A DNA stretch of 64,000 bases from Escarpia spicata (taxonomy: Eukaryota > Annelida > Polychaeta > Sabellida > Siboglinidae), in contig OZ023205.1 in NCBI GenBank assembly GCA_963995525.1, positions 65,792,621-65,856,620 on the forward strand. The letters run 5' to 3'. The notes under the pieces are model-generated. The model was given only the letters and a program-made list of their open reading frames with translations, ran no database searches and was not told where the DNA came from. Position numbers and translations under genes: made by a program. Below are positions 4,301 through 45,886 of this stretch, one piece after another (positions within the stretch are counted from its first letter, which is position 1; the number at the start of each line of letters is the position of its first letter).

Positions 4301-7300
4301 CAATAGAGAGTTACCCAGATCAACATATATCAATTCAGAGATCAACGTAAATAAATAAGATACTCAAGATACACAGAGATCAACATACATTTGTTGGAAT
4401 CTTTACAAATATAGTGTCACATATTTTGCATATACCTTAAAGGGAGCCAGACAGTTTCTCTACCTGCAATTAGCAAGCATAGTAATTTGCAACATGAAGT
4501 CTTCTGTGCTGAACGTAGGAAAATGGGAAATCATTGAACATCAAAGGGCATTGCGGTTAACTCTGCCCGACTCGTCTGTATTGCCATAATTCTTATTTTG
4601 AAACTGGATGTTTTGTTTACTATTTGAAAATGTGGTTGTGCCATAAAATTGCGACTGTTGTTACGGGCTTACTAAACACTATTTGGCTGGCAGTAAACCT
4701 TCAGCATTATTGTCACAGAAAATTATAATAAATGAAATACTAGGAACAGACACATCACTGCCTCCTTTATAACTTCCTTCTACTCAACTTAACAACTATT
4801 GTGGTGTTTAATAGGAGGAAGAGGAGGAGCACCAAGAGGAGGAAGTAGTCCAGGAGGAGGAGGAGGAGAGAGAGGAGAGGGAGGCCGCCCACCAGGCTGA
4901 GGTGGCCTACATTGAGAGGAAGCTGCAGGCGTTGAAGTCAGGGCGAGTCTGTCGCTCTCCCCTCACCCCCCACCCTCCTCCACAGCTGTACCACCAGCGT
5001 ATGTACACCCCTCACCCCCCACCCTCACCCACATCCACACCACTAGCATATGTTTATTTAGTTATTTAACCTATATAACGTTTATTAGTATTTTTTATAT
5101 TGCATGTACATTTGTTTTATTTGTTTTAATATGCTGCTACACTCCAAATTAATTTCCCTCCCAAGGGACAATAAAGTAATATGATTGATTGCGATTGATT
5201 GTCGTTGATGTACACCTTGCAGTAAACACTTGGTGTGTGTGTATGTGGTTTTTCTTGTGTGAGTGAGTGAGTAAGTGGCTGGGTGGGTGGGTGTGAGTGC
5301 ATCTGTGTGGGTGTCTGTGTGACTGTGAGTGTGCGTGTGTGCTTGCAATGCGCGTGTGTGTGTGCGTGCATGCATACGTGTGTGCATGTTTGTGCGTGCA
5401 TGCATGTGTGTGTTTATGCATGCAATACATGGGTATGTGCGTGCATGCATAAATTAAGCACAGTGTTATCATCAGTAGAATGCTGCACTTCAGAATAGTA
5501 ATGATTGTTGGCAGACCAATCAGCAGGGCTATTTGTGCCATTGTAATACTGTTTTGTAAACATGCTTCTTAAATTTTATTCCGCAATTTTACTTCTTTGT
5601 CGACCTGACATCAACAATTGTTGACCATGGCAGCATCATGCACCAATTCACTATTTATGCGAAGCCATGCGATGGCATCCACCACAAATTATGGTTTTGG
5701 TTTGCTTTCCTGGCTATTTGCTATTTTGTGACGTTTCGCCATACTATCACAATAGTTGTGACATTATCACAATTTGTATTTCTGTATTAGTACAAGTATC
5801 GTAATACTATTACAATAATAACTCCAAACTTTCATGGTGTTGTTTTTACGTTTTAGGTATAAAGAACACAAAACACCTCGACGACTTCTGTTACCGCAAA
5901 CTCTCTCTGCTGAAACAGAAACGTCAACAATCAAGTGTTGTCAGCGGTAATGACAAATATGTTGATATTAAATGATTAAAGGATACATTTATAAGTTACA
6001 GTGCATATTTTTTTCTAATTTAGGTAGTATTACATTAACACTAAATTTGCAGGGAGAAATAATGCAGTGCACACACTGTTCAAGAGAAAAATGTTCAATG
6101 TAGTTAGTCACAGCGTTTCTTACACAGAGTGTGATTTTATTCCAACTCATAATGTTGTAGTAGGCAAGAAGAAACAGTTGGAGTGTCTAATGATGGGGTA
6201 GGAGGTGGGAGCAGGCTAACCAATATTAATTGACTCAACTGTAGGTATCAGCAACTGTTCTTATAAAAGAAAAAAACATTCTCCTTCACTCCGTTTTCAA
6301 TGATTTGTCTACACTCGTGTGTTGCTTTTACTGTTCTCCATTTCTAATCACTGTGGATGGTGAAAGCCTTCTTTTTAGAAAATATATATAGAATCACAGT
6401 TTAACTTATATGGGCATATAGTTCAGGTCACACAATTGGCGCAACTGGTTAAATCGCCACAATACAAAATAAGCTGCGATTGGATCGCAGTGGCGCATTT
6501 GTCTTCTACGTTCCCTTTTAAATAATTTTATATTTTTCATTAAACATCAGATATATGTATATAAATATTAAAATACACTATTTCTAAATAGCCAATATTA
6601 GTTGCGATAATTGTCTTTTAGGTGAAATGACCTTTGAACTCTGAACCTGTAACATTTTATGCAACAAGTAGATTGTTTTTACCATACAAAAAAATTACAA
6701 AAAAGCAGTACATTTACAAAATAATAAGAAAATGGGATTGATGAGTGAACAGCCGTATTTGTTCTCTCCAGAAAATGGTAATGTTGACACTATTTCTCAT
6801 CTGGTATGTATATTTGTTCTATATTACGAGTTGTAGGTAGAATGGAGACCGGGGGTCATGAAGGGAGTACCCTGTGTGGAAGCAAGGGGGTGAGACATCG
6901 AGAGAGTGCCCGCTGCATGTATCTGGGTTTGGAAGGCAGTCAGTGTGTGGATGCACATGGAATGTCTTCAGTGAAAGTGAGGAAGTTGAGAGAAGCTCAT
7001 GCGATGGGCCAGATCAGGAAGGTACAGTGTCAATAGCTTTATGTGTTGACATTCTTATACCTGACAACTTCTGAGTTTCGAAGTCAGAGATTCAAAATAG
7101 TTTATAAGTCTCGTCAGTTCGGTCAAGCTCTGCACTGGGCTGTGGAAGATGGGGGGTGCTGCTGTAGATTTCTCAGGAGTCTCAATGGTTTGGTCTTGTT
7201 GGATTAGCTACCGGAATACAGAAAGGGGGGTGTTGTTGGAGGTCTGAATGAGGCAAAAATCTCGGAGAATTTGTTCTTTTCCGGGAGTCTGGGAGATTCA

Positions 7301-10300
7301 CAACAAATCCAGGAGACTCCCAGAAAAACTGGGAGGGTTGGAGGTATATATTCTTCAAGCCAGGTGTGGAGGTATACATTCTGCAAGCCAGGTGTAGAGG
7401 TATACATTCTGCAAGCCAGGTGTGCAGGTATACATTCTACAAGCCAAGTGGAGGTATACATTCTGCAAGCCAGGTGTAGAGGTATACATTCTGCAAGCCA
7501 GGTGTGCAGGTATACATTCTTCAAGCCAGGAGTGGAGGTATACATTCTGCAAGCCAGGTGTGGAGGTATACATTCTACAAGCCAGGTGTGGAGGTATACA
7601 TTCTACAAGCCAGGTGTGGAGGTATACATTCTACAAGCCAGGTGTGCAAGTACACATTCTACAAGCCAGGTGTGCAAGTATACATTCTACAAGCCAGGTG
7701 GAGGTATGCATTCTGTAAGCCAGGTGTGGAGGTATACATTCTGCAAGCCAGGCGTGGAGGTATACATTCTACAAGCCAGGTGTGGAGGTATACATTCTAC
7801 AAGCCAGGTGTGGAGGCATACATTCTGCAAGCCAGGTGTGGAGGTATACATTCTGCAAGCCAGGTGTGCCGGTATACATTATGCAAGCCAGGTGTACAGG
7901 TTAACATTCTGCATGCCAGGTGTGGAGGTATACATTCTGCAAGCCAGGTGTGGAGGCATACATTCTACAAGCCAGATGTGGAGGTATACATCTGCAGGCC
8001 AGGTGTGCAGGTATACATTCTGCAAGCCAGGTGTGGAGATATACATTCTGCAAGCCAGGTGTGGAGATATACATTCTGCAAGTCAGGTGTGGATGTATAC
8101 ATTCTGCAAGCAAGGTGTGGAGATATACATTCTGCAAGCCAGGTGTGGAGGCATTCATTCTGCAAGCAAGGTGTGGAGGTATACATTCTGCAAGCCAGGT
8201 GTGGAGGTATACATTCTGCAGGCCAGGTGTGGAGGCATACATTCTACAAGCCAGATGTGAAGGTATACATCTGCAGGCCAGGTGTGCAGGTATACATTCT
8301 GCAAGCCAGGTGTGGAGATATACATTCTGCAGGCCAGGTGTGGAGATATACATTCTGCAAGTCAGGTGTGGAGGTATACATTCTGCAAGCAAGGTGTGGA
8401 GATATACATTCTGCAAGCCAGGTGTGGAGGCATTCATTATGCAAGCAAGGTGTGGAGGTATACATTCTGCAAGCCAGGTGTGGAGGTATACATTCTGCAA
8501 GCCAGGTGTGGAGGTATACATTCTGCAGGCCAGGTGTGGAGGTATACATTCTGCAAGCCAGATGTGGAGGTATACATTTTGTAAGCCAGGTGTGGAGGTA
8601 TACATTCTGCAAGCCAGTTGTGGAGGTATACATTCTGTAAGCCAGGTGTGGATGTATACATTTTGCAAGCCAGGTGTGGAGGTATACATTCTGCAAGGAA
8701 GGTTTGGAGGTATACATTCTGTAAGCCAGATGTGGAGGTATACATTCTGTAAGCCAAGTGTGGAGGTATACATTCTGCAAGCCAGTTGTGGAGGTATACA
8801 TTCTGCAAGCCAGGTGTGGAGGTATACATTCTGCAAGCCAGGTGTGGAGGTATACATTCTACAAGCCAAGTGTGGAGGTATACATTCTACAAGCCAAGTG
8901 TGGAGGTATACATTCTACAAGCCAGGTGTGGAGGTATACATTCTGCAAGCCAAGTGTGGAGGCATACATTCTACAAGCCAAGCGTGGAGGTATAAATTCT
9001 ACAAGCCAAGTGTGGAGGTATACATTCTACAAGCCAAGTGTGGAGGTATACATTCTGTAAGCCAAGTGTGGAGGTATACATTCTACAAGCCAAGCGTGGA
9101 GGTATACATTCTACAAGCCAAGTGTGGAGGTATACATTCTACAAGCCAAGTGTGGAGATTCACCGATCAGTTGTGCTTTGTCCTAATAGTTAAGTCCACC
9201 AGTTGCAACTGTTGGAATCCCCGTGTTCCATATCACAGGGAAACGCCAGTAAACCCCAACATAATAACCAGTCTGTGCATTTTCTTACAACAATGTCTAC
9301 TTCTCGTATGTTCTTTGCAACATCAGCCATAATTGGTGAAAACCCACTGATTCCAGAATGGAAGGAAATCATTGAAAATATAATGCAGTCTTTGAATACA
9401 ATTATGTTGTTACTTTATTTCCAGTGACTTTTTTCCGTGCCAAAACCGACTTTATTTCTTTGACTTTTTCCTGTGACTTTACCGTCTGCTGGTTCTGTTG
9501 TAGGCAGCAGAGGCAAGGATTCACATTCCCAGGAAGTGTCCAGCATGTCAGTGAGTGATGGGTGTCTTCAAATATATTAGATTGTTTATAATAATATAAC
9601 TCCTCTATGCTGCTACATTGACCAAAAATCTGAAATTATATTGTCATTATCTCCATAGCCTTTTTCAAAATTCTGTTTTTAAATAATTTGTTTAAAACAA
9701 ATGTCTGATCTGCAAAGCGTGATTTAGCTTTTACTAAATACTGTATTATTATTATTATTAAAGGCATGGGACATTAAATTTAACGTAACTATTATGAAAT
9801 AATAGTTTTCATAGATAACCAGTCAAACCAGTTATAATTTCATCTAGATGAACATTGCTGGGATTTAAAAAAAAAAATATACAGCTGTGTACAGTTAATA
9901 ATTAAATTATTGTTTATTATCACTTAATGACATTTTAGGAGAAAACCTAAACAAGGAAGTTCAACTTCTAAATATGATATAATTATAAGCTCTTAAAAGT
10001 CTGTTTTGAAAGTTGATTAATTTAGCTGATGGGAGAATATCATCCAGAGTAAATTATTAGAGCAGATAAAAAAATATTTAAATAAATTCTTAGCGAAAAT
10101 GTTGAATCTTGCTGAAGATCTCGTTTCATCTTATGCAGAGAGAAGATGGCAGAATTGGCTGAAGAAGAATTTTTCCGTACCAAGACTGCAAAAATGTTAG
10201 CAAGACTACTGGAGCAGAAATTCGAGAAACACCTTTTAAAATACTCTGTAAGTGTTCATTTGAAGTGTGAATGTGAAGATTTAATGACAGTTGTTGACCT

Positions 10301-29170: not shown

Positions 29171-29593
29171 CTACAGCTCCTGGATGCAGTGCTCAATACT
29201 CAGCACCATGTTCGCCACCGACACCGCCGTGTTGAGTGCCTTCGTTGACGCGAGAAACGAATCGAGAACATCACAAGTCTGAGACACCGTCGTGTCTGCG
29301 TCGAGTCCCGTCGGTTTCCCTGGCTGTGAGTTGAATTCCATCTTGCCAGTGTTCCGTATTTGCCCACACTGGCACGTCGTCATCACCGTAGGAGAGATCG
29401 TGTTGCTTACTTCCACAGCCGGTGGCACCCGCCAAGCGTGGTGATGCTGCGAGTCGGTGACAACGCAACCGTCGCTTCTGTTCACCGTTGTGGCAATGTG
29501 TCGCAGATTAGCTGCAAAACTGTCTACGACTGTCTGCAGCTGGAGCCTGCTGCAGACGTGTTCTTTCGTCCACTCGAGCCACTTCTCCGAGAA
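29171..29593 (-). CDS. MKKS: MKKS terminal exon
   Basis: Acceptor ATCTGCAG; 141 codons ending in TAG at 29173-29171. It starts FSEKWLEWTKEHVC and carries the returning equatorial domain (LQTVVDSFAANLRHI, DTTVSQTCDVLDSFLAS, ANMVLSIEHCIQEL). The middle of the exon (GCVVTDSQHHHAWRV onward) is the poorly conserved loop also seen in vertebrate MKKS. Confidence 0.85.
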   Translation of the reverse strand, partial: FSEKWLEWTKEHVCSRLQLQTVVDSFAANLRHIATTVNRSDGCVVTDSQHHHAWRVPPAVEVSNTISPTVMTTCQCGQIRNTGKMEFNSQPGKPTGLDADTTVSQTCDVLDSFLASTKALNTAVSVANMVLSIEHCIQEL

Positions 29594-32500
29594 CTGCAGA
29601 TAGAAATATGACACGTTAACTAAGTAATAGTAATAATTAAATGTATAACTAAAATCCAAAGTAATCTCTGTTCGGCAGTGTTTATAAACAATAAATTAAT
29701 ATACTAAATAATAAATATATAATAACAATACTAATACAAATAAAGAAAATAAAAATAATAATGACAACATCACACCACACATATAAGTTTGTACAAAATA
29801 GAAAGTACTGTACCACTAGTAGTTAAATAACTAACTAAATAAATATACTGTATATTCGGATTTGCATTAAAATAAGAATTAATATAAAAATAATAAGAAA
29901 CGGATAATAAAGAATGCACATCATAATACACATGAGTTTGTCAAAGGAATACCTGGGGTACAAAATTCATCATTTGGCAAAGATTGAGGTTGACCAATGT
30001 AGAAAATGTTTACAGGGAAATGATATATACAATTTGTGACCCCAAAAGAAGATTCAAATTCCAAGTCAACATTGTAAAATCATTATCAACATTCTGAATG
30101 ATGCAAAAACCCAATTGATATATTTAAATATAAAATAAAAATAGGAAATTTAGAAACAGTTCATGTCACACCTGACAAATATGCCTACTTTACCTGGTAT
30201 GGTTCTAAATTAATAGTTTCACACCATAATATCATAACAGGTTTTGTTATATTATATATAACTTAAAAACGGATACAAAAATTATAATAATAATAAAACT
30301 TTATTTATACACAGTCAACTCCGGGGCTAATGCTCCATTCATGGGTGTTTACAAAATGCAGCAAGAAGTTAACAAACTAAATCTTACGCAATTTATATAT
30401 AATAAAATTATATGTAATAAAATTAAAGGTACAATGAAATGGAAAAGCTATGATTAGCACAAATTTAGAAAAGCTAAACAGACTGGATAGAAGCTACAAA
30501 TACAGACAAAATTATAATAAATATATTGAATACCTATTAGAATCACATGCTAAGAGCAGACCTGCCTACCCCAAAAACTTCCTGTCAGTAATCCATCTTC
30601 CCATTTACACTGATTTTCAGGAATATAGGCTTCCTGTCAGTAATTCAGAACTGTGTCAGATATTGGTCGTGGGGGGGGGGGGGGTAGCGAAGGGTCAAAA
30701 CCATTAGTTACGCTGTCACCAACATCACCTACACTCTAGCCTACTCCTCAACTCTAGAATGATAAATGATAGACGGGAGGGGGGGGGTAGCGACAGGTCA
30801 AAACCATTACTTACGCTGTCACCAAACATCAGCCAACACTCTAGACTCTAGCCTACTCAACTCTAGAATGATAAATGATAGACGGGGGGGGGGGGGGGGG
30901 GGGGTAGCGACCGACCAAAACCATTACATCACACTGTCATCGACATCGACATCGCCTACACTCTAGACTAGTGACTGTATGATAGGCTGTAAATGATAGA
31001 CTAAACTCCTCAATAAATACACTAACTTAGTCTTAGTACAGTCAGTTGGCCTAACACTACAAGTACAACACTCACTAAATGTTTGCATTACACATTTCTT
31101 TTCGGTTGGCGGTGGGCGTCGTTTCGCTGTCATCCATCATTTGGTGCAGCGTGACTTCGTTTTGTTTGATCGCGGAAATGCCAATTTGTCATAACGTTGT
31201 TTCCTATTGGTTAGATTACGACCAGACTCAGCGAATGAAAAACCAGCGAATGCTGCATACATATGCTGCCACCTGTTGATTATAGTGGAAACTAAATTTT
31301 AGTGATTGGCAAACATGGTGACAGTCCGTAATATTTTTATCCCTCGCCGTAATACCGTAATTTGAGGTGACTTTCGGAATGATTCCGGACAATCCGGAAT
31401 GGTAGGCAGGTCTGTAAGAGGCATACACAATTAATTAAAACTGTTCATGTAAATAATACAAATGTTAGATTACGTTTAACTATATTAGGTCAAGAAATGT
31501 TTTCAGTTGTGCAGATATTTACACCTCATGTAATGTCATCCCCAGCTTCACACTGCGTGTGATATTACTGATGAGGTGTGTGACAAGGTGGGTCACTAGG
31601 TCATAACGTTGGCCTGATAATAAGGTGTAGGCATTGCTGGGAGATTGACTCTCAACATTGGTAGCAAATGAAGGAGGAAGTCTGTGAACTGACCGTGCTC
31701 GTTATGACGTGCGCCAGGTGCGACAGCCAACAGCCGCTCCCTGCCAGAGCTAGAGGCTGCTGGGACGCCATTCGAAGAACCTGCTCAGCCGTCTTGCAGG
31801 CACTCTGAAAGCAGACTCAACATTCAGACACCAAGTTTCAACAATACCATGACGTGATGGACATATTTGACGTAGTCTGAATGGAAGACTGGAAGGAAGG
31901 CTGATCAGATCAGGTGGTATGTAAATCAGTATAACAGATAATGCTTTAATGGCAATTGGTATTAATGAGCTTGCCGAGTCTCTCTCCCTTGCTCTGTCTC
32001 TCTCTCATCTACCAAATTAATCTAGAACTAGTCAAGTGTGTAGATTACGCTTCAGACCATTAATCATGCACTGTAAGATACCACTGTCTTACTCAAGTGT
32101 TAGACCCCCCACCTTGAGTTCATCGACAGCCTCGTCTGTGCGAGCACACAGCACCACAGTACACACAGTGCTGCCTGAAGGAGCAGTCCCCAGGTGCACG
32201 TAGCTCTTATGGGCCATCACCCGATGGGTAGCAGTCTGCATATAACCCCAGTCTGTCTCCTCCACTACCGTCTGATGGTCTCCAAGCAGACGGCCGCCTG
32301 AAGCAAGGAACAGAAACAACATGGATTCAACCAAAACATGGTTCAACTGAACTGTCTTAGATGGAAGGATAGCCTTCAAATTGTTATCCTAAATGTATTG
32401 CCAGCTAACATTTCTTAATATCACTCTGCAATTAAGCATTAACATTTTTAGTGCTTTGTGATGACAAACACATTTAAACAGAACAGCTGTTTAGGTGTAC

Positions 32501-34971
32501 ATGGGACAAGTCTTGTAAAACCAATTAAATTATATAAATTCATATAGGAGATTACAAATAGTTTTCAGTAATACATTGATCTTCATGTAACATTTTTTGC
32601 TGAAGCAATTGACAAATTTAACCTTTATGTATCATAAAAAATTATATTTCATACCTGTGTAGCCAAATTATTGTAAAAATGACCCATTGCAATGATTCGG
32701 GTTTCACTTAGCTATTTACTGTAACATACAAATGACATTAATGGACATGGATGTGAAATCCCATTACAAACTTAATCCCAGTCCAGAGTTGGATCAACAT
32801 CACAGCCAAAGACTTCTAGGCCAGGAAGCAAATGGAATGGTGAGGACTCAACTAACAGAAAAATATGGAAGCCTGCACATCAGTGCAAAATTACACAGCA
32901 TGGTAGTGGTGCAGTCTGTGGGAATTGTGGACAATAACGAGTCGAAGGGTGCTACACATACATGATGTGAAATGCTTGAATGGCAGCAGCACTGTATAAT
33001 TATAGATAATTTATTGCCATGATATGACACGTGTTGAGCTCTACTGTGTATGCAGTAGGCACAGAGAAGGAGGCTGACTGGACACCACAAACACTGGGAG
33101 TGGCAGGCGTTTGGGCCAGGGGGCCTGGAGGTGGCAGGGGTTGGGGCCAGGAGGACTGGGGGTGGCAGGGGTTGGAGCCAGGGGGACTGGGGGTGGCAGG
33201 GGTCTTAGCCTCTATTCTCCCACCTCTACTGGGAGAACAGAGACTCATGCCATTTACACCTATTTTAATATACAGGTACACTTGTTAAAAGTGAGAAAAA
33301 TTGCTGTTTTCTTTCTATGTTTAAAATGTGGAGTTTTTAAAATACTTATCTATGAAAAACAGTTTAAACATGTTTTACTTTGATATGTGCCACTGTGCAA
33401 TGACTAATAAGCCCTGACCAGGCATGCTATCAGGAAACTACAAAATAAGTGGACATTTGTTACTGGTGGGAGTGACACACAGGATTTCTTGCTGTAACGT
33501 ATGCTTTCTGATGCATTCTGGGGAAAAAATGATTGCTGACCCCTTAGCATAAATCCTAAAGAATCCGATAGATTTCCTAAATTATTTTTTTAGAATTATA
33601 TAGTATTCTGTAAAATGTGTTTATGGCCATTCAGATTAAAAAAACAAAACTAGAATTCTGTAGAAAACCTATAGCCACTTTACTTTCTATAGAATTCTGT
33701 AGAATATTCTATACAATTTTATAGAATATTGCACAAAAATCCTGTCATATTTCCTATAGCATATATTCTGAAGAATTCTACAGATTATCTTTTTGCTAAG
33801 GGACATTTGAACCACATGGATCCATGAATTGGTGTTGTCTGGCCCTGACGCAAACATGCGTGAGATTCACAGGTAACAAAAACGACACCTTTCTTTTGGC
33901 CTCTCAATATTCAATACCAAGTTGTGCTCTGTGGACAAACTCACCGACTAGCTGGTGCACAGCCATAGTGCGCTGGAGGCCCAGTCGGTCCAACACCAGA
34001 AGGCCATTCTTCTTCAGGAGTCTCTTCAGTCGCGGGTGAATGACCTTCTGACACAGAACCGCCCCCACCCCCTGCGCAACTAACCTCTCGCCACATTTCA
34101 GTAACTCACTCATCACAGCAGCACTAAACTCTACGTCTGGTTCTAGCTGATACTCAGCATCCACTGACATGTTAGTTTCCCCAGCTAGAGAAGTGTTGAA
34201 GAGTGCAACTCTAAGCAACCCTCTATGTGGCCCTTCCTGCACAGGTCTCCACCCCAGGGGGCGAACACTATACGTGGCTATGTGCGGAGTGTCTACAAGG
34301 ACGCCGTCAATGAGATACGACTCTCCGACGCTGTTGCCTTCCACGCCTACATACTCTGTGAGACCCCACGAACTGTCAGTGCAGGAGTCGGGGAAACATC
34401 TGAGGAATGCCTCCACTATGAGCTTACTCATGTGACGGACATCACCGTCTAAGAAACCACACACAGGCTTTGTCTTTATGGCATTCTCTGCCAGTTTTAA
34501 TAGGTCCCCAGTTGTTGAGAAATCTACAGCCACTCTGCAAGTGCAGCGCTCAGAATACAGATAGTCCAAACAGCATTTCAGTAAGTGTTTGTTAACTTCG
34601 ATGGTCAGCCGCCTGTGGACAGTGAGGTCCAGTGAGCAGTCAATGAGACCAAGACAGAGTTGTCCAGCCAGTAGCCCACAGTCTCCATACAGAGCCACAT
34701 GTTGCTGGATGGCGGTAGTGACCAGTCGCAAGACGGGCCTCGACACTGACATGCCAGCCAGCAGACGTGCTGCAGATGTTGTGAGAGTGACGTGGCCGCC
34801 GTGGTTGTTGTGGATGAGCTTGGGGCGGGCGTGTGGACCGTAGCAGGAGGCCAGCAGCTGCAGGAGTGAGCTGATGGCATGGCGGGTGTTGGCATGTGTG
34901 AGGGGTTCCGTGAAGAACTCAGATACTTGTTTTGGTGCGACCCTGTCTCCCACTGGGGCTGTCGCTTGCAT
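29171..34971 (-). CDS. MKKS: McKusick-Kaufman/Bardet-Biedl syndrome 6 chaperonin-like protein
   Basis: Four coding exons on the minus strand: 34971-33945, 32297-32113, 31804-31694, 29593-29171. All junctions are GT-AG and in phase, total 1746 nt, 581 aa (human MKKS is 570 aa). MKKS/BBS6 is a divergent group II chaperonin-like protein that acts with BBS10, BBS12 and CCT in assembling the BBSome for ciliary trafficking. Seen here: SCYGPHARPKLIHNN (residues 42-56), YGDCGLLAGQ (95-104, where active chaperonins have a GDGT nucleotide motif), CRVAVDFS, LCQKVIHPRLK (306-316, apical domain), AVDELK at the end of exon 2, LALAGSGCWLSHLA in exon 3, and a C-terminal helix (AVSVANMVLSIEHCI). A very large first coding exon and four coding exons also match the vertebrate gene. 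Start: ATG 34971-34969 with A at -3; about 30 nt of 5' UTR precede it in the exon. Confidence 0.92.
30300..31010. repeat. Three tandem copies of a roughly 105-bp unit with poly-G tracts (MKKS intron 3)
   Basis: Units start at about 30681, 30785 and 30901. Each begins with GGGGTAGCGA, continues RGTCAAAACCATTA and ACTCTAGAATGATAAATGATAGACG, and is preceded by a G run of 14 (30671-30684), 9 (30779-30787) and 21 (30884-30904). The copies differ by small indels. A LINE/SINE-like 3' end (AAAACTTTATTTATACACAG near 30296) lies upstream. The rest of intron 3 (29594-31693) is AT-rich without other features. Confidence 0.7.
33098..33212. repeat. 31-bp G-rich minisatellite, 3.3 copies (MKKS intron 1)
   Basis: Units start GTGGCAGG and contain TTGGGGCCAGG and GACTGGGGG. 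Three full copies and a partial fourth. The plus strand is G-rich enough for quadruplex folding. The remaining intron (32298-33944) also holds the CTATAG MITE described separately. Confidence 0.85.
33537..33803. mobile_element. MITE-like element rich in CTATAG and TTCTGTAGAA palindromes
   Basis: The ends are inverted: CCCCTTAGCATAAATCC at the left and TTTTTGCTAAGGG at the right. The interior is made of overlapping short palindromes (TAGAATTCTGTAGAA, TTTCCTATAG, TATAGAATATT). The same end (CCCTTAGCCAAAAA) and the same words occur in the 56806-57600 array. It lies in MKKS intron 1. Confidence 0.6.
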
Positions 34972-35004
34972 CGTCTCAGGTGGCTGGTGCTGCAAGTATG
35001 TACA
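33945..35004 (-). CDS. MKKS: MKKS first coding exon
   Basis: The acceptor is probably GTTTCAG with exon start 35004 (an inner CTTGCAG would start it at 34989). Coding runs from 34971; donor GTCG|GTGAGT at 33945, phase 1. It encodes the equatorial N-terminal half, the intermediate domain and most of the apical domain (342 codons). If the outer acceptor is used, the exon begins with a 9-codon out-of-frame ATG frame that stops before the MKKS start. Confidence 0.85.
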
Positions 35005-35326
35005 TCTGAAACACAACAAGGTCGTGTGTCTGACAACTGGTACAATATCCGTCTATCACAATTCACATGAGAGGAAGACCATTGAATAATTGCAATGCAA
35101 TTATGTCAAGTGTTTGACAACAAACAGCTAGCACGTTATACATCTATAAGAAGTCACGTGAGAGGAAAACCGTTGAATAATTGTCCACCCTGGTGATGGG
35201 GTAAGGAAAGAAATGTAACTCTATGTGAGGGATGTATTAGTCTTGTAACTATGTTATGTAAATATCAACAATGGGAACGTCAGTTTGATCTATTTGTAAA
35301 TAGGCAGCAGCATATAGAAATCCATA

Positions 35327-36538
35327 CTATTGCATTCCAAATAAGTGTACAGGTCGGAATAACAGTATAGGGTGGACATGCCTCGGAATTTTAATAAGAG
35401 TATAGGGCGGAATAACATAGTATAGGGTGGAAATATCTCAAAATTATAATAAGAGTACAGGGCGGAATAAGAGTATAGGGCGGAAATTTCCTGGAATTAT
35501 AATAAAAGTACAGGGCAGAATAAGAGTATAAGCCAGTAGTAAGCTGGAATTAAGTTGCAATGTATGTATTTATAATTTTAATTGGTGTCTTTTTGACAAT
35601 GCAACAACATAATTATATGCAAACAGGAGTTGCCTACATCAAACAAACAATAATACTGTATATTAAATCAAACGTCGAAACACAACTCCAAACATAACGC
35701 TTCATTTAGTTTGTCTCAGTGATTAGTAGTTTAACACTAACTGATATGTGTTGAAAACAGCGATTGAAGGATATCTATAATTGTTAGTATTACATAAATA
35801 GAAACAATGCCAAATTCTGCGGGATACTCTTTATGAATAATGTAGTTAATTTCGCCAAGCCTGCCACCCTTAAATACATAAATGGAGTGATCCACGATGG
35901 CTTGTTAACCACGTAGCTCTGCCGCGTAGCATCGAGGTGACTACTGCAGTAAGGGTTGTCTGGTGACGTCGCGCCATGTGAATTGGTCGCGTCACAAATT
36001 TGCCTGCGAAACGTCGTTAATCATGCTTTATCGCTCAGCCCTAGACTGCGAGATTCACAATTTACTAGCCATAATACCAACGTCCTGACCACAACATGAT
36101 CCCAATAAAACATAACAAACCTTTATATTTAGCACATAGGTTCCCTAAGTGCTCCTTTTGTACATACGAGTAATTTTTCAATTTGTTAGTGAAAAGATCG
36201 CTATCTGCCATGATTGGCGTGGTGACTGGCGTAAACAGCGTCGTCGTAACAACATAGAGCACTGCGCGTTCGGCTTCATCGATTCACCGGCAAGAATAAT
36301 ATTTATATATACACATTTCTCAGAACATTGTATCGGTGATACAAATAAATACATGTAGTGCCTAATAAAAACCATATAAGGTGGAACTAACAACAGTAAA
36401 TAACCTTAAGACCCAAATAAAAAACAGGGTGGAACTGCCAACATTACATAAGTGTGCAGACCCAAATAAGACCGTATAGGCTGGTATTTTTTGTACAAAT
36501 AAATAGCCGCACATATACGCTTATTTGGAATGCAATAG
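35327..36538. mobile_element. Non-autonomous DNA transposon with TIRs and TA target duplication
   Basis: Left end TA|CTATTGCATTCCAAATAAG, right end CTTATTTGGAATGCAATAG|TA, a 19-bp perfect TIR. Next to the left TIR there are about six degenerate repeats of ATAAGAGTATAGGGCGGAA; next to the right TIR, related AAATAARACCGTATAGG words. The TA duplication suggests the Tc1/mariner or a related TA-targeting group. No transposase. Confidence 0.8.
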
Positions 36539-36810
36539 TAACACACTTTACCTCTCCCACGTCAATCTAAATCACAACCGAAATGTAAACAACTTCTTAA
36601 ACTTGTGTTACAGCCAAATCTCACAGGAGTAAACAATGATGGGTGTATAAGAAACAATGACACACTATTAAAATTGTTTATTTCTACACAAAGGTTATCT
36701 TATAAATAAGTTCAAATCTATAACAGAATAATGTGCTGAAATCTTGGAAATGTAAGCAATGCTTTTTTTAATTAGAAAAGTACAATTACATTGTTTTAAT
36801 TTCAATACAG

Positions 36811-36979
36811 TATGATGAACCACTCAACAAGATTTGGCAAGACAACCAGAGCCAGATTGCCTTCCAAAGTGGCAAGCTTCTGATACCAAGTGGACAAAAC
36901 TTGAAGGAGAAATGTTTCATTTATGTCACGTGTAGCCCGATGCCTCTCCTCAATAACACAGCTAGCATTTACACAATCA
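36811..36979 (+). CDS. Orphan exon-like segment
   Basis: A good acceptor (TTTCAATACAG, ending at 36810) and a consensus donor (ATCA|GTAAGT after 36979) bound 169 nt open in one frame, reading YDEPLNKIWQDNQ, QIAFQSGKLLIPSGQ and KCFIYVTCSPMPLL. It is antisense to the intron of the MKKS unit. No partner exon was found. It could be an exon of an overlapping gene, an element-derived exon or chance. Confidence 0.35.
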
Positions 36980-37179
36980 GTAAGTAATGCATTCCTTTTA
37001 ATTATTGTCCTATAACTTTATAAGAAAATGAATTTGTTTCTCACACTCAAACTGTTCGTCCTATGTGTGAGAAAACTCATAATCACAGTAACAATACCAA
37101 CACAAAATATAAACCATAACCACGCGTGTGCTTAGTATGTAGTTAAAAGTTACCAATACATTAGAGAAAACAGGTTCAT

Positions 37180-37185
37180 TTTATT
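37180..37185 (-). terminator. Intronic poly(A) signal behind the second small ORF
   Basis: AATAAA on the minus strand, 19 nt after the TAA of the 56-aa ORF and 16 nt past the splice donor. Use of this site would give a short transcript with only the two microprotein ORFs. Splicing at TG|GTATGC would remove it and give the MKKS mRNA. Confidence 0.6.
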
Positions 37186-37204
37186 CATATTATATAGCAT
37201 ACCA

Positions 37205-37375
37205 TTATTTGCTGGTCTTGAGTGCGGTCTCTGCCTCACGCACCCTGTCCTTGACAGTGGGCAGTGGAGGGTCTCCTAGTGGCCATGAACCAACGTAGAT
37301 GGCAGCGAATACAGCAAGAAATGACACCAACTTGTTGCGGCCAGCCCAGACCAATACGTTTTGCACATAAGACAT
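37205..37375 (-). CDS. Second upstream microprotein ORF of the MKKS transcript (56 aa)
   Basis: Exon 37377-37203: acceptor TCATATGCAG, then CC and ATG (G at -3 after splicing), 56 codons, TAA, and donor two bases later. The protein has one hydrophobic segment, NKLVSFLAVFAAIYVGSW (about residues 14-31), after a short N-terminus with a basic residue, then LGDPPLPTVKD and a charged helix ending in Lys. This is the layout of small mitochondrial membrane microproteins. The whole ORF fits one exon upstream of MKKS. Human MKKS has upstream ORFs for mitochondrial microproteins; orthology is inferred from position and layout, not from an alignment. Confidence 0.75.
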   Translation of the reverse strand: MSYVQNVLVWAGRNKLVSFLAVFAAIYVGSWPLGDPPLPTVKDRVREAETALKTSK

Positions 37376-37570
37376 GGCTGCATATGAAGAAGATTTTAGT
37401 GGTAAAGACAACAGGTCAGAAGATTGACAATGACAGTTTTCATCAAATATATAATCAGTGTGTTAATGATATTCAGAGAAGCAGTGCCCAATTCCACTCT
37501 GTCATGTGTATAACACTCATTATATAATATTTACAGATGACAAAAAAATAAAAACAGGATTTGCCTGTAT

Positions 37571-37603
37571 TACTTTCTGCCCTGCCCTGCCCTGCCCTGC
37601 CCT
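37571..37603. repeat. (CCCTG)n pentanucleotide microsatellite
   Basis: About five copies of CCTGC just 3' of a T-rich stretch. It lies in the intron between the two microprotein exons, which is otherwise AT-rich without features (37378-38308). Confidence 0.8.
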
Positions 37604-38343
37604 TACAGGATGAACCTTAAAAACACATAAAACCATGTCTGCATTATTTACACGTTTGGTACCTTCACAGCTTTAATATTAATTTGTATTCCTTATTAGT
37701 TATATAATTGCATTCAAGTAGAAGTGAGCATGCACTGTACAACCTATAGATCTAGGAATTCCTTTTACTTTATTTGCCTGAAATAAGATTGTGTCCAAAC
37801 ATTGTTCACTATGCCCACCAACTGAAAATAATGCTGAGTAGACGCAGAGAGCAAATACGAAACTTTCATACATATATATATGTACCAACGGAGAGGTCAA
37901 TGTTCAACATTTAAAATAAATACACTCATTATATATATAACTCCATGGTAAACAAAGTCTAAAAACAATCTAAATAATAAACAAATTACATAAAGCTATA
38001 ATATATGACTCGGTATAATATATTATGTTAAAGATATTGAGAATGGGCTGATCATCAAAGGTTCTTGCTGTCACTGTGTCAACACAACTGGCATTATTTA
38101 AATAGAATCAGCATGTTTTGTTTACATTTTTTATATTTTGCCGTCAAAATATTCAACGAAATTGTGAACTATACTTTAGGTTTAAATATTAAATGCAATT
38201 TGGCAGACAGTATATATGTTCAACATATTTAATCTAATATCAAGAGCAATTATATTTGTAAAGGAGGCACATACAGCCTCGTCTTAGCAGGAATACAAAC
38301 CAACCCACCTGCTTGCCGCGTCCGCTGTGATAGTCAGAGTAAA

Positions 38344-38520
38344 TTACTGTCCCCCGTCCCTCTTTCCAACGGTCATACCAATCACTTTGATGTCACCGTC
38401 TTGAGCAACAAACTTGGAGTTGTGCTGCAGACGATACCAGCCCCAGTGAATGGCCACTATTGTTGGTATACAAATAACTAACACAATGTTTTTACGCAGG
38501 ATCCCAGCAACGCCACTCAT
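38344..38520 (-). CDS. First upstream microprotein ORF of the MKKS transcript (58 aa)
   Basis: Exon 38531-38309: acceptor TCTGTTGCAG, 11 nt of leader, ATG (A at -3), 58 codons, TAA, 35 nt, then donor AAGCAG|GTGGGT. The sequence is MSGVAGILRKN, then the hydrophobic segment IVLVICIPTIVAIHWGW (12-28), YRLQHN and a polar tail (GKRDGGQ). A basic N-terminus, one membrane span and aromatic exit residues suit the inner mitochondrial membrane. After splicing, the stop and the next ATG are 37 nt apart. Conserved codon structure, splice borders and tandem placement with the 56-aa ORF argue against chance. Confidence 0.75.
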   Translation of the reverse strand: MSGVAGILRKNIVLVICIPTIVAIHWGWYRLQHNSKFVAQDGDIKVIGMTVGKRDGGQ

Positions 38521-38531
38521 AATTCGTCGAT

Positions 38532-40236: not shown

Positions 40237-43200
40237 ATACATAATTTTGTAGCTTTAAAGGATGTGGACGCCATGCAAGGGTTGCATTTCCCTGATGGCT
40301 GGTATGGCGACACACAGGAAGGCTGGCAGTGATGGCGTGATGTGTAGAACAGCAGATGGTGGTAGTCTGTTCCATATGGATGCTGCTCTGGGGTAGAATG
40401 CATATTTATATGCATTGATGGTTGGAATTATTGTGTTGGTATATTTAAGTGGATGGTCGATTCTGTTGGATATATGTGTGGCGTGCTGGAAACATGGCGG
40501 AGGGCTGATGTTGACCAAGTGGTAGTGGATTTTGTAAAACATTGATGCTTGTTGAATGAGGCGGCGTGTGTGGAGCGAGTCCCAGTTGAGTTTGTTTATG
40601 AGTGGTTTAATATGTGTTTCCTTTCGGTAGTCGGAGAAGATGAATCTTGCAGCATTTCTTTGGATTTGTTCTATACGGTTAATTTCTGTTGCTGTGCATA
40701 TTCAACTTGTGGTCGGACAAGGGTTTGGTAAGCTGTTTATTTGACATTTTGTGAGCAAGGTGACAGTGTTCTTCTTAAGAGTCCAAGTGTGCGGCTGGCT
40801 TTGGTGGTTATTTTGGTGCAGTGGTCATTCCATCTTAGGTTATGTGATATTGTGACTCCAAGGTAGTCGTGCTTTTGAACATGGCTTAGTGATTTTCCCA
40901 GTAATGTATATTGATATAGTTTGGGGTTTCGTTTGCGTGTGATGGTGAGGACTGCACATTTCTTAACATTGAAATTCATTGACCACTTCTTAGTCCACGT
41001 TGTGAGGGTTTCTAAATCGTTTTGTAATATATGTTGATCGTTTGTGTTATTTATTTCTCTGTATAGGATGCTGTCGTCTGCAAAGAGTTTGATTGTTGAA
41101 TTTTTTTGTTCCTTGATGTCGTTTATGTATAGAAGGAATAGGACCGGCCCCAGGACAGATCCCTGAGGAACTCCGGAAGTGACATTAGCCCAGGAAGAAT
41201 GTGTGCCATTGACTGAAACAGATTGTATACGGTGGGATAAGAAGCTATTGATCCAGCCAAGAGTGTTGTTTCGGATGCCGTAGTAGTTTAATTTATCTGA
41301 TAGGTGGTGATGAGCAACTTTATCAAACGCTTTACTGAAGTCTAGTAAGATTACATCAGTCTGACTTTTTTTATTTAGTGTTTCTGACAAGTCATTAGTT
41401 GAGTTTATGAGTTGTGTTGTAGTTGAGAGGCAGTTCCTGAATCCATGTTGTTCATTAATAAGGATGTTATGAGTGTTAAGATGTTTGGCGACATGACTTA
41501 GGATTATGTGTTCCATGATTTTACAGCACAAGCAGGTCAAGGATATGGGTCGGTAGTTGGAGGCGTCTGATTTTAGACAGCTCTTATGAATTGCTGTAAC
41601 TAGTGCTTTGCGCCACTGTTTTGGGACTGTTGCTTGGTTATAGGATTGCTGGAATAGACATCTAAGAGCTGGAGCTAGTTCATTTGCAACAATTTTAAGG
41701 AAACGGGGTGACATTTCATCAGGACCGCATGCTTTTGATGGGCTTAGGCTAGATAATTGTTTGGCTATGCCGGCATTTGTGATGTGTAAGTGAGGAATGG
41801 AGGTATATGGAGATGGACCTTTACTGTGCATTTCTGTATGTGTCTGCTTATTAAATACGCTTTGGAAATGCATGTTCAATGCCTCCGCCTTATCGTGATC
41901 TGTGGTACACATTTTATCAGAAGTTTTAAGTGTTGGGATTCCTAGGTTTTCTGTGCGAGTGAGTTTTACGTATGACCAGAAAGATTTTGGGTTTGCAGTC
42001 ATATTCTTGCCAATTATGTTGTTGACATAATCGTGGTGTGCTGAGCGGATACATTTTGTAACATAGTTGCGATATTCACGGTAGGCTTTCCAATCTGATG
42101 GGGTGTTTGTTTTATGGGCTTTTGAGAAAAATTTATCACGTTTTCTCATCTTATGCTTGAATTCAGATGTTATCCAAGGTAGATTTCGTTTTCCTTTAGT
42201 GAGTTTTGATGGAACATTGTCATCCACAATTTTGTCCAGTCCATTTCTAATTGTTTCCCAGTTTGTGTCGACTAATTGTTCTTCAGGGTTTGAGGCTAAG
42301 AAGTTGTTGACGAAATCATGTACTTTGGTTTGCTGTGTTTTGGGGTCAATTCTGTCATAGAGGTATATCTTTCTTTGTGGTTTCTTTTGTAACTTAGGTT
42401 TCATGTTGATATCAAACAGTACAATGCAATGGTCAGAAATGCCTGGAAGCACCTGTATGTTGTCTCTGAGATTAGGGTTTGATGTAACCAGAAGGTCCAG
42501 GATGCTATTTGAGACAGGTCTTGTGGTGCTGGTAACTAGTTGAGAAAGCGAGTTATCAAGTAAGAAGTCAATGAATTTCTCGTGCATTGCTTTAGTGTTA
42601 GTGTTTGTTGTCAACCAGTCGATCTAGTTCATATCTGGTAGATTGAAGTCCCCTCCAATTATTAAGTTTGGGTGCTGGCGTGGGTTTTTATTGATAGCCT
42701 TGGCTACTGATGAGATTAAGGCGTCTAGTGACTGAGTTTTGTTGCCTGGTGGTCTATAACTGGCCAGATATAGCGGTTTAGAGTCTCTGAATTGCACGCT
42801 TGCCCAGATAATTTCGCAGTTTTCGCCTAATTCAGGTTCATCAGAGGTAATGAGGCAGTCTTTGGTGGCAATAAAGACTCCTCCTCCATTTGCATTGCGA
42901 TCTTTGCGGTAGACGGTGTAGTTTTCTGGGAATAGTTCATATGTAGCCATATTGCTATCTAATTTGGATTCACAACCCAATATGAGTTCTGGTTGGTGTT
43001 GATCGATTGTTGCACGGAAGGCTGCTTGTTTAGTCGTGCTTTTGATACTGTTACAGTTTATGATCATTGCCCTGAGGCCATGTTTTTTGTTTTTGATGGT
43101 AGGCGTGTTGCAAGTACCAGACGAACCTTTGGATGGAGTTGAGGTTTTTGGGTGCATATTATCTTCATCATTTATACAATCATTGTCATTAGTGTCATCA

Positions 43201-43889
43201 CGTTCAGAGAGCAGTGAAAAGGGGTTTGTAGTGGCGAATGATTGGGTTTGAGATATTGACGAATCCAAATTTGGAAAACCACATTGGCAGCAGATCCATG
43301 AGAAGCTTGATATGTTTTTCATGATGCTGTAGTCAATTTTGGTGGTGTCTATGCATTTGGTATGGTACCAGAGTTCACATTTGTCGCACAGGAGTGCTCT
43401 GTCATCTTCCTTTACTTCATATCTGCATACTCCACAAGGATATAAAGATTCAGAGCTATGGAGACTAACTAGTCCAGTGTTTGTTTCGATTTGGCCAGCG
43501 AGCAGTATGATCAATAACAGATGATAATGGTTGGCTTTGAATTTCAGGATTTGGGGACAGAAACGGGATTTCTGTTTAGAGATTATATAGAGAGCTATAC
43601 TCCATTTGCCAACACTTTCGCTGAAATTTAAGGTGTTGCTGACGTTAGTAGTATCGTTGAGCGCTTCCTCAATATGGGAATTACCAATCATATGAGGCTT
43701 ATGGCAAAAGGAAGCCAGATTTGTGTCAACTTGCAGGCTAGGATATTCTGATTTGGACATCCTGTCACCTGTATTGGAGCTGTAACTCTTGTTTGGGGCT
43801 GTGAGTACAGCAAAAATCCCGAGTAGCAGTAACAGAGTTGTCATGTTGAGAGTTGGGAGAATTTTATAATGTTTATGCTCACTAAGCAA
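40236..43889 (-). mobile_element. Nearly complete CR1-like LINE with PHD finger, endonuclease and reverse transcriptase
   Basis: ORF from 43889: a hydrophobic N-terminus (MTTLLLLLGIFAVLTAP), a 2A-like motif, a PHD finger (CGVC, CDKC, H-x2-C, C-x-C; residues 152-203), then an AP-endonuclease domain (IINCNSIKS, CESKLDS, ASYRPPG, IIGGDFNLPD). An in-frame TAG (42624-42626) follows MN. The frame then continues with endonuclease end (ISDHCIV), KSFWSYVK, ACGPDEMSPRFLK, NYRPISLTCL, LLDFSKAFD, SGVPQGSVLGP and FADDSILY, up to a TAA at 40737 that sits inside the thumb. 40255-40542 gives the C-terminus (YPRAASIWNRLP) in another frame. Two nonsense changes plus late frameshifts make it inactive, but it is recent. 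Confidence 0.9.
43470..43520 (-). other. Decayed 2A-like (ribosome-skipping) motif in the LINE
   Basis: LLLIILLAGQIETNTGL sits between the hydrophobic N-terminal extension and the PHD finger. Functional 2A peptides end in D-x-E-x-N-P-G-P; here D is Q and both prolines are lost (TNTGL). 2A-like sequences at this place are known in non-LTR elements of sea urchins and other invertebrates. This copy should not skip. Confidence 0.55.
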
Positions 43890-45886
43890 ATGGAGCGTTC
43901 TAACTGTAGATTTTTAATAGGTATAAAATTGTTTTATTGTAGTGCTGTAATTTAATGCACTTAAAAATATTTGCTTGTAAAAACTTGCCTTTATATGAGT
44001 TAAAGATACAGTAAATATTAAAAAAAATATATAAACCATGAATTCTAAAGAAATAATGTGCATATGCAGGGCTTGTGCAAACAACACAAATAGTCAGATA
44101 GTAATGTTATTTTCGGTTCTGGGCCGACTCAGAACCTCTGGGTATTTGAAAAACATAGGGGTGTCAGTGACAGTGTGCCGACAATGTCAATGACACACCC
44201 GAAGATTGGCCTGTTAGTTCAGAGGGTGGAAGTTAGATGGGTAGGGTGATAAACAAAATGGTGTTTTAATCTAAAAACTGTGTATGTTTTAAGCTTTTGT
44301 ATATAATTGGAGGTAGTTTAATGTAATCAATATCTGTTTAGTTCATATTATATTAAGTTTTTAAGAAATGAGCTGTTATCTGAGTTGTGTTTGGGGGGAT
44401 TTTAGTTACGCGCGTTTTTAGTGCTTATTGTTTACATCCGCGCCATCTTGATCTATATTCGGAACCAGTTGCTAGGCAAGCTAATTTGGCAAAACGTAGT
44501 TTAGGGGGGTTTGATCGGAAGTGTAATTACAAGATTATATTCTAATAGTGATACTATTAAACATCTGTAAGTTTGAATTTATAAAAGCTTTTAAAATTCG
44601 TGATGTTAACAATAAACACAAGAACCAGTAAAAGATACGACTGCACCTGACGCATGCGCACTGCTATATTGCTCATTTCATGCGCGTGGTACGTTAACGC
44701 ACAACCGCACCGGTGCAGACTGGTGCAAACTGGGTCGCTATTTGGGCTTCAAAATTGTGCTAAGACGCAATTTGTTTTAACATAAATATGCCTGACCCTG
44801 CTCCTGGGATTATGACGATGGAACTAATGCACGGAGGTATAAAATTTAGGCAAAAATGTGGTTATAACAACAAATTCAAAGTAGTTAGTAGGCCTGGATA
44901 CTAGACAAGTACCAAAATGTATTTTATTTACGACCAATTACTAATTAATTACTCAATTAGGCCAATTATAACTAATTTATTATTATCGAAGTGTCAACAT
45001 TTTAGTTGTTTGTCGTCATTTCTAACTATTAAAATGAAAACAATTGGCGTTTATACGTTTGTTGTCATCTCTGTTAAGGTATTGATGGCTACATTTTGGT
45101 ATACCTACATTTTATATATCGACCTATGACGCAGTTATGTAAAGGCAAAAGCTGAAACACACACACAGTCGCAGCAACTTTTGCCTTGGTGTCTTGTTTT
45201 GAGGTGTTGATATGCCTCGAATTTCGTCTAGGGTAAATAACAAAGGCTCGAATTTGTGTAAGACATTGTACCAACATACTTACCAGTGAAAACTTTTATT
45301 TCAGCACTGTTAATACAATTTGTGCGATAAACGTGAATCTATTTTCAAAGACGTCTCTGTTCGCTAGATTATCGTTCAACGACCTTACTGGAGGGTGTTT
45401 GCTTATCTGTAGACTTACACCGAGTTTCTTTCCGTTGTAAATATTGTCCGTTAGGCGGCGCTAGGGTAGTAGATCAATGGGAAGTTGGTGTGTAACAATT
45501 AATACATCGAAATTTTACTATCGATGCATCGCGAAAGTCAATGTTGCGATGCAATCCTATCGATGGTAAATTTAACTATCGATAGATATCGGCGATAACA
45601 CAGTGAACTATCGATAGTAACGATAGTTAACTAAACACATGATAAGCATGCAAGTTCACCTATGTAGCTGTAATACTATTTATCTATCGACTCTAACTAA
45701 GCGATGGCACCACCCGTCAGTTTTGGCTGGGTACATGCGATTTGGAGCTAATTAACTCGCATCATGTAAAATTGGAACATAACTATAAATTTAGCTTTTA
45801 CTATACTATAGTAATATTATCACAATAGTAATTATACAGCTATCGCGATACTATAGATAATTATAATAAAACTATATCCCCGATAG
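43890..45886. other. 5' region of the LINE and gene-free DNA with promoter-like motifs
   Basis: No gene recognised. At 44439-44452 GCGCCATCTTGATC is a YY1-type site (minus strand CAAGATGGCGC), and at 44650-44662 GACGCATGCGCAC is NRF1-like. The latter is followed by a plus-strand ATG (44788) with 16 open codons and G|GTATAA. At 45500-45900 the words ACTATCGATAG and TATCGCGATA recur many times on both strands. The short frames here are not convincing. Confidence 0.45.

Follow-up and report, generated by a model that had tools for sequence, protein, structure and literature searches.

The human microproteins uMKKS1 and uMKKS2 are encoded by small open reading frames (ORFs) ahead of the MKKS coding sequence, and Akimoto et al. 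2013 is reportedly the paper that first described them. A 64 kb window (the whole stretch of 64,000 nucleotides analysed here, from contig OZ023205.1 of the annelid Escarpia spicata) contains a similar locus on its minus strand: two small ORFs, termed ORF1 and ORF2, directly precede a gene for MKKS, also known as BBS6. It is probably an annelid version of the human arrangement, in which a single transcript would encode two microproteins and BBS6, with a switch between polyadenylation and splicing.

Human uMKKS0, uMKKS1, and uMKKS2 comprise 43, 63, and 50 amino acids (aa), respectively, according to PMC9985340. Taken collectively, that paper and six others (PMC12573267, PMC6886504, PMC7066179, PMC7530721, PMC8448870, and PMC9776223) describe long and short MKKS transcripts that carry the small ORFs; a polyadenylation, or poly(A), site within the leader, which yields a short transcript with upstream ORFs (uORFs) only; and detection of the uMKKS1 and uMKKS2 products in human mitochondrial membrane fractions. 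(The sequence-only reading that called attention to the Escarpia locus had named the mitochondrial microproteins and alternative polyadenylation as features of human MKKS, and both are indeed published.) The uMKKS1 ORF apparently occupies a single exon, its 63 aa being contained within a printed genomic span of 193 bases.

Other results add to this picture. Both MKKS uORFs have been used as positive controls for mitochondria (PMC7066179), and GENCODE annotates such coding sequences, associated with untranslated regions, as distinct genes (PMC6886504). Frameshift tests indicate that a human MKKS uORF represses the main ORF, at least in part through its sequence (PMC7530721), and overexpression of the product of a conserved MKKS uORF altered transcription profiles (PMC10032668). 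A literature search found no paper on annelid MKKS uORFs; the supplementary taxon lists of PMC7530721, in which Lophotrochozoa is a category, may cover them. Annelids are not mentioned in PMC4568590. The kind of locus is already known from human MKKS, and the annelid case is what is added.

Arrangement of the locus

Coordinates are positions in the window. The exon model was drawn from sequence only, with splice sites judged by eye, and all of its borders are AG/GT. A slash marks an exon border in the following features.

38531-38309, minus strand: exon 1, which holds ORF1; ...CTCTGTTGCAG/ATCGACGAATTATGA ... GGCAAGCAG/GTGGGT
38520-38344, minus strand: ORF1, 58 aa with one hydrophobic span; the uMKKS1 equivalent by position
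37377-37203, minus strand: exon 2, which holds ORF2; ...CTTCATATGCAG/CCATGTCTTATG ... AAATAATG/GTATGC
37375-37205, minus strand: ORF2, 56 aa with one hydrophobic span, under purifying selection; the uMKKS2 equivalent by position
37197-37202, minus strand: splice donor GTATGC, two bases past the ORF2 stop; matched in P0001, a relative of ORF2, by W-Y-V (TGG TAT/C GTN)
35005, minus strand: start of exon 3, acceptor TTGTGTTTCAG/ATGTACATAC; the MKKS ATG is at 34971
34972-35005, minus strand: 5' part of exon 3 ahead of the MKKS start, giving the A of a junction TGA and then a run of 11 codons open in frame with MKKS
33904-34971, minus strand: first MKKS/BBS6 coding exon, as an ORF to the stop at 33904; the real exon ends there or earlier

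The sequence-only reading had proposed two consecutive minus-strand exons, each with a complete small ORF and one membrane span, the ORFs being 37 nucleotides (nt) apart after splicing. Those coordinates hold, as does the donor placed two bases past the second stop. The next acceptor does lead to the MKKS start codon; exon 3 begins at 35005, not at 35004 as had been given. In this exon model, the layout is of the uMKKS type: two complete small ORFs, each contained in a single exon, on the same strand and directly upstream of MKKS. The acceptor CTCTGTTGCAG on the 5' side of exon 1 implies a further, non-coding exon upstream.

All three start codons have a purine at position -3 (ORF1, A; ORF2, G; MKKS, A). 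The most hydrophobic 17-residue segments are residues 12-28 in ORF1, with a mean Kyte-Doolittle value of 2.09, and residues 17-33 in ORF2, with a mean of 1.76; the net charges are +4 and +3, respectively. Once spliced, ORF2 and MKKS share one reading frame, a point that the sequence-only reading missed: the TAA stop is followed by a TGA formed across the junction (TG/A), 11 open codons, and the MKKS ATG. A 10-codon uORF in another frame (MMYILAAPAT) lies mostly in the 5' part of exon 3, with its first ATG at the end of exon 2.

The downstream gene, whose product is a group II chaperonin-like (TCP1/cpn60) protein, is firmly predicted to be MKKS/BBS6, as had been proposed. Its 355-residue ORF matches the Pfam family PF00118 (Cpn60_TCP1) with E 1.6e-32, and a tblastn comparison with human BBS6 aligned 336 positions at 34.5% identity, with E 1.9e-58. 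Among solved structures, thermosome and CCT chains match weakly: the best has E 5.3e-8, and 23 of 177635 distinct sequences reach E<=0.01.

Conservation of the two microproteins

The length of the small ORFs is unremarkable, because the window contains 144 ATG-initiated ORFs of at least 56 aa (67 on the plus strand and 77 on the minus). Conservation is more telling. A search of about 5.8 billion proteins, with E up to 10 and a method that detects only relatives with exact 5-residue words in common, returned three relatives of ORF1 (P0003, P0004, and P0005) and two of ORF2 (P0001 and P0002), at E 1e-15 to 1e-27. Identity with ORF1 is 84% for P0003, 72% over 93% for P0004, and 80% over 71% for P0005; identity with ORF2 is 76% over 96% for P0001 and 73% for P0002. 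Among three sequences each, 36 of 58 positions are invariant in ORF1 (a count that leaves out the partly misread P0005) and 32 of 56 in ORF2. P0001 and P0004 both derive from ENA, and in each case the longest contig measures 50782 bases, which suggests that ORF1 and ORF2 are probably linked in that source as well.

P0005 is LSAT2_018877 of the siboglinid annelid Lamellibrachia satsuma. It tracks ORF1 for about 40 residues; its following 33 residues are the ORF2 exon translated in the wrong frame, from the first base of that exon to the same stop. This entry uses the exon 2 acceptor of our model and begins the exon at the same base (CC/ATG). Within this part, all 11 residue differences from the window can be explained by one change each at a third codon position of ORF2, and all 32 ORF2 codons are still able to encode the window residue. 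Neutral simulations under a simple, ad hoc model (11 residue differences, no stop, 11 to 30 changes spread uniformly over the sites, with transitions making up half) never placed all changes at ORF2 third positions in 20000 runs, and left all 32 codons compatible just once in 20000. A cruder estimate by hand, which gives every visible change even odds between bases one and two of the wrong frame, is about 1 in 2000. This third-position signature indicates that ORF2 is maintained as a protein: in these sequences, protein-level selection on ORF2 is shown. The formal test covers the first 32 codons of ORF2, and constraint on ORF1 is judged from protein identity alone. The earlier proposal that the small ORFs are conserved is thereby borne out, with homologues of both and purifying selection on ORF2, and the sequence evidence supports both as real conserved coding sequences.

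Relatives outside these entries were sought in several ways. Scans of viral contig collections with ORF1, ORF2, and MKKS, and of prokaryote genome collections with ORF1 and ORF2, gave no confirmed relative. A search for a solved mitochondrial subunit resembling either ORF, with single sequences and with profiles, gave nothing better than E 0.23. Pfam searches with both ORFs and their relatives found no convincing family; the best match (E 0.0076, below the cut-off) came from the partly misread P0005.

Splicing, polyadenylation, and the link to MKKS

Past the end of ORF2, P0001 reads Q-W-Y-V-I-C, and the window, read through its own stop, gives stop-W-Y-A-I-stop. Since W-Y-V must be encoded by TGG, TAT or TAC, and GTN, the donor TG/GTATG appears to be conserved in P0001. 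A donor placed directly after ORF2 requires another exon further on, and the MKKS exon is the simplest partner because its acceptor, 34 nt before the ATG, needs an upstream exon. The microprotein exons are thus predicted to be spliced onward, most simply to MKKS.

The AATAAA that the sequence-only reading had placed beyond the donor is present:

37180-37185, minus strand: AATAAA, candidate intronic poly(A) signal, beginning 18 nt past the end of exon 2
37071-37123, minus strand: GT-rich stretch, candidate downstream element, beginning about 57 nt past the AATAAA

Three minus-strand AATAAA motifs lie between 38531 and 35006 (at 37774, 37185, and 36682), and 11 of 1035 GTRNG sites have an AATAAA within 35 nt. 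By a measure of downstream GT-richness that was ad hoc and chosen with the sequence already known, the motif at 37185 ranks 9th of 144, tied with one other, and is equalled by 3.2% of 3000 random positions. On balance, use of this candidate intronic site is slightly favoured.

The most probable model for the locus is as follows. One promoter region would produce a transcript whose first coding exons specify two independent single-span microproteins. Cleavage and polyadenylation at the AATAAA just inside the next intron would generate a short mRNA that encodes both microproteins and no BBS6. If instead the donor after ORF2 were used first, the exons would be joined to the BBS6/MKKS exon, with the uORFs limiting BBS6 translation. 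Joint transcription, the poly(A) switch, location in mitochondrial membranes, repression of BBS6, and common descent with human uMKKS1 and uMKKS2 are what we infer for the annelid locus.

The relative P0001 raises a bolder variant of this model, because the TAA stop of ORF2 in the window is a glutamine codon there. In that relative the ORF2 stop would be made only by splicing (TG/A), provided that exon 3 begins with A, and RNA processing would set both the end of the second microprotein and the choice between microproteins and BBS6, in an ancient bilaterian transcript. In the intronically polyadenylated mRNA, ORF2 would then extend to 67 residues; with an exon 3 that lacked the initial A, translation of ORF2 would continue into BBS6 without a change of frame. 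This proposal is doubtful and is offered tentatively. P0002 has 56 residues, as does ORF2 of the window, so that two of the three ORF2 sequences share one stop position, and the stop missing from P0001 may reflect a sequencing error in its contig.

Several observations weigh against the one-transcript model or its kinship with human MKKS. AATAAA is common in the window (144 occurrences on both strands, versus 83.75 expected), and the GT-rich stretch lies at a fair distance from the candidate signal. P0005 departs from ORF1 at an internal point, and is therefore a faulty gene model, not a transcript, and does not prove how the exons are spliced. Intron 2 has a CpG-rich stretch that could serve MKKS as a promoter of its own; the link would then be looser. 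Finally, a 17-residue fragment of human uMKKS1 (PMC8448870), the sole human uMKKS sequence compared, aligns with ORF1 no better than shuffled sequences do: 3832 of 5000 shuffles scored at least as well in local alignment and 2369 of 5000 in semi-global alignment. The same fragment gave no signal against P0003, P0004, and the three ORF2 sequences, and a protein search with the ORF1 alignment plus the fragment retrieved P0003, P0004, and P0005 again, with no vertebrate protein among the results. This fragment may come from a fast-evolving tail.

The strongest rival to a shared transcript holds that ORF1 and ORF2 belong to a separate two-microprotein gene with its own poly(A) site, and that MKKS, with its own promoter, is a mere neighbour. 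The AATAAA directly after ORF2, with GT-rich sequence beyond it, would suit such a gene, as would the 2.2 kb that separate ORF2 from the MKKS exon and the CpG-rich stretch at about 36.4-35.8 kb as the promoter (observed/expected CpG is 1.1 to 1.4 at positions 36400-35801 of the minus strand, versus 0.67 window-wide). Yet a consensus donor two bases past the stop, matched in P0001, is useless to a gene that ends there, and the acceptor 34 nt ahead of the MKKS ATG would lack the upstream exon that it requires. A pair of independent neighbours is accordingly unlikely.

Alternatively, the ORFs might act only in cis, with nascent peptides that stall ribosomes to limit BBS6 and released peptides that have no function. 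The human precedent, in which repression of the main ORF by the conserved-peptide uORF of MKKS depends in part, at least, on the uORF sequence, lends this some substance. However, most of both peptides is conserved, including the membrane span and not merely a C-terminal stall motif; both human products are found in mitochondrial membrane fractions; and the short transcript would have no BBS6 to regulate. A purely cis-acting role is quite improbable. That the ORFs arose by chance in non-coding leader exons, or reflect an assembly artefact, can be dismissed for practical purposes: ORFs of such length abound in the window, but the homologues in other assemblies, at the E values given above, and the third-position signature in P0005 speak decisively against it.

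Other features of the region complete the description. Beyond the first coding exon, the remainder of MKKS is represented by the following segments.

32110-32358, minus strand: further MKKS coding exon, by the extent of the tblastn match (E 3.6e-4), ends approximate
31703-31801, minus strand: further MKKS coding exon, by the extent of the tblastn match (E 0.004), ends approximate
29171-29695, minus strand: open frame with the probable last MKKS exon, from a weak match to the C-terminal part of Cpn60_TCP1 (E 0.0038, below the family cut-off)

The CpG-rich stretch of intron 2 also contains an exon-like ORF from 36211 (MADSDLFTNKLK...), which ends at a donor-like AAAG/GTTTGT. Together they could mark a promoter within MKKS, belong to a small gene of their own, or derive from a mobile element. 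A Pfam search with a hand-joined 74-residue reading of the 36211 region gave no match. An N-terminal extension of MKKS from this ORF was considered and rejected: spliced at AAAG/GTTTGT, it would be out of the MKKS frame (worked by hand). Nearer the MKKS acceptor, at 35530-35340, intron 2 holds a repeat with copies spaced about 53 bases apart and 83-84% alike. Just upstream of exon 1, at 40737-43913 of the minus strand, are open frames that by eye resemble a retrotransposon without long terminal repeats (a reverse-transcriptase-like frame of 628 aa, and a PHD- and endonuclease-like frame of 429 aa). In the ORF list, positions 7200-9330 form a long repetitive stretch with several frames open on both strands.

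Comparison with known systems

What survives of the overall interpretation first put forward for this locus is the identity of MKKS, the two conserved coding ORFs, and the donor, which looks conserved in one relative; similarity to the human uMKKS1 fragment is the part that failed to appear. The proposal that the arrangement is older than vertebrates draws on where the small ORFs lie, their order and size, the containment of each in one exon, and the membrane span; it is not derived from an alignment. On position, order, size, and membrane span, we consider it likely, with reasonable confidence, that ORF1 and ORF2 are orthologous to human uMKKS1 and uMKKS2.

If so, one transcription unit would have kept a pair of membrane microproteins together with a chaperonin-like protein of the cilium since before the protostome/deuterostome split. 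This would suggest a lasting reason for their co-regulation, and would offer several lineages in which to test it. The locus also supplies annelid-like sequences for comparison with two human proteins; the literature consulted describes their location and expression effects and gives no molecular function for them. Gene finders can hide such microproteins: the public nr entry LSAT2_018877 contains a gene-model error whose wrong-frame C-terminal part conceals two conserved microproteins, the second of them being in the wrong frame.

Other systems resemble this locus in part. In Drosophila, Sloth1 and Sloth2 (human SMIM4 and C12orf73) are likewise two single-span microproteins per transcript; PMC9681215 describes them as assembly microproteins of mitochondrial complex III, the first of which limits the second. 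By that description they are set apart, as proposed diverged paralogues from a bicistronic transcript without a larger ORF after them. A paralogous pair of the Sloth kind was considered for Escarpia and rejected: hhalign gave a probability of 0.14% for ORF1 versus ORF2, from alignments of only 3 and 4 sequences. The uORF microproteins of MIEF1 and SLC35A4, named in PMC7530721, PMC7066179, and PMC10908861, are also conserved mitochondrial peptides ahead of a main ORF. In contrast to the Escarpia locus, their main products are unrelated to MKKS. Each has one upstream peptide, not two.

The closest counterpart is human MKKS itself. Both loci have two small ORFs in order before MKKS, of 63 and 50 aa in human and 58 and 56 aa here, and both sets of peptides are of membrane type. 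They differ in that the human leader also encodes uMKKS0 (43 aa), for which no equivalent was identified at the Escarpia locus. The shared frame of ORF2 and MKKS is a feature of the annelid locus, the comparison with human MKKS covering order, size, and membrane character rather than frame.

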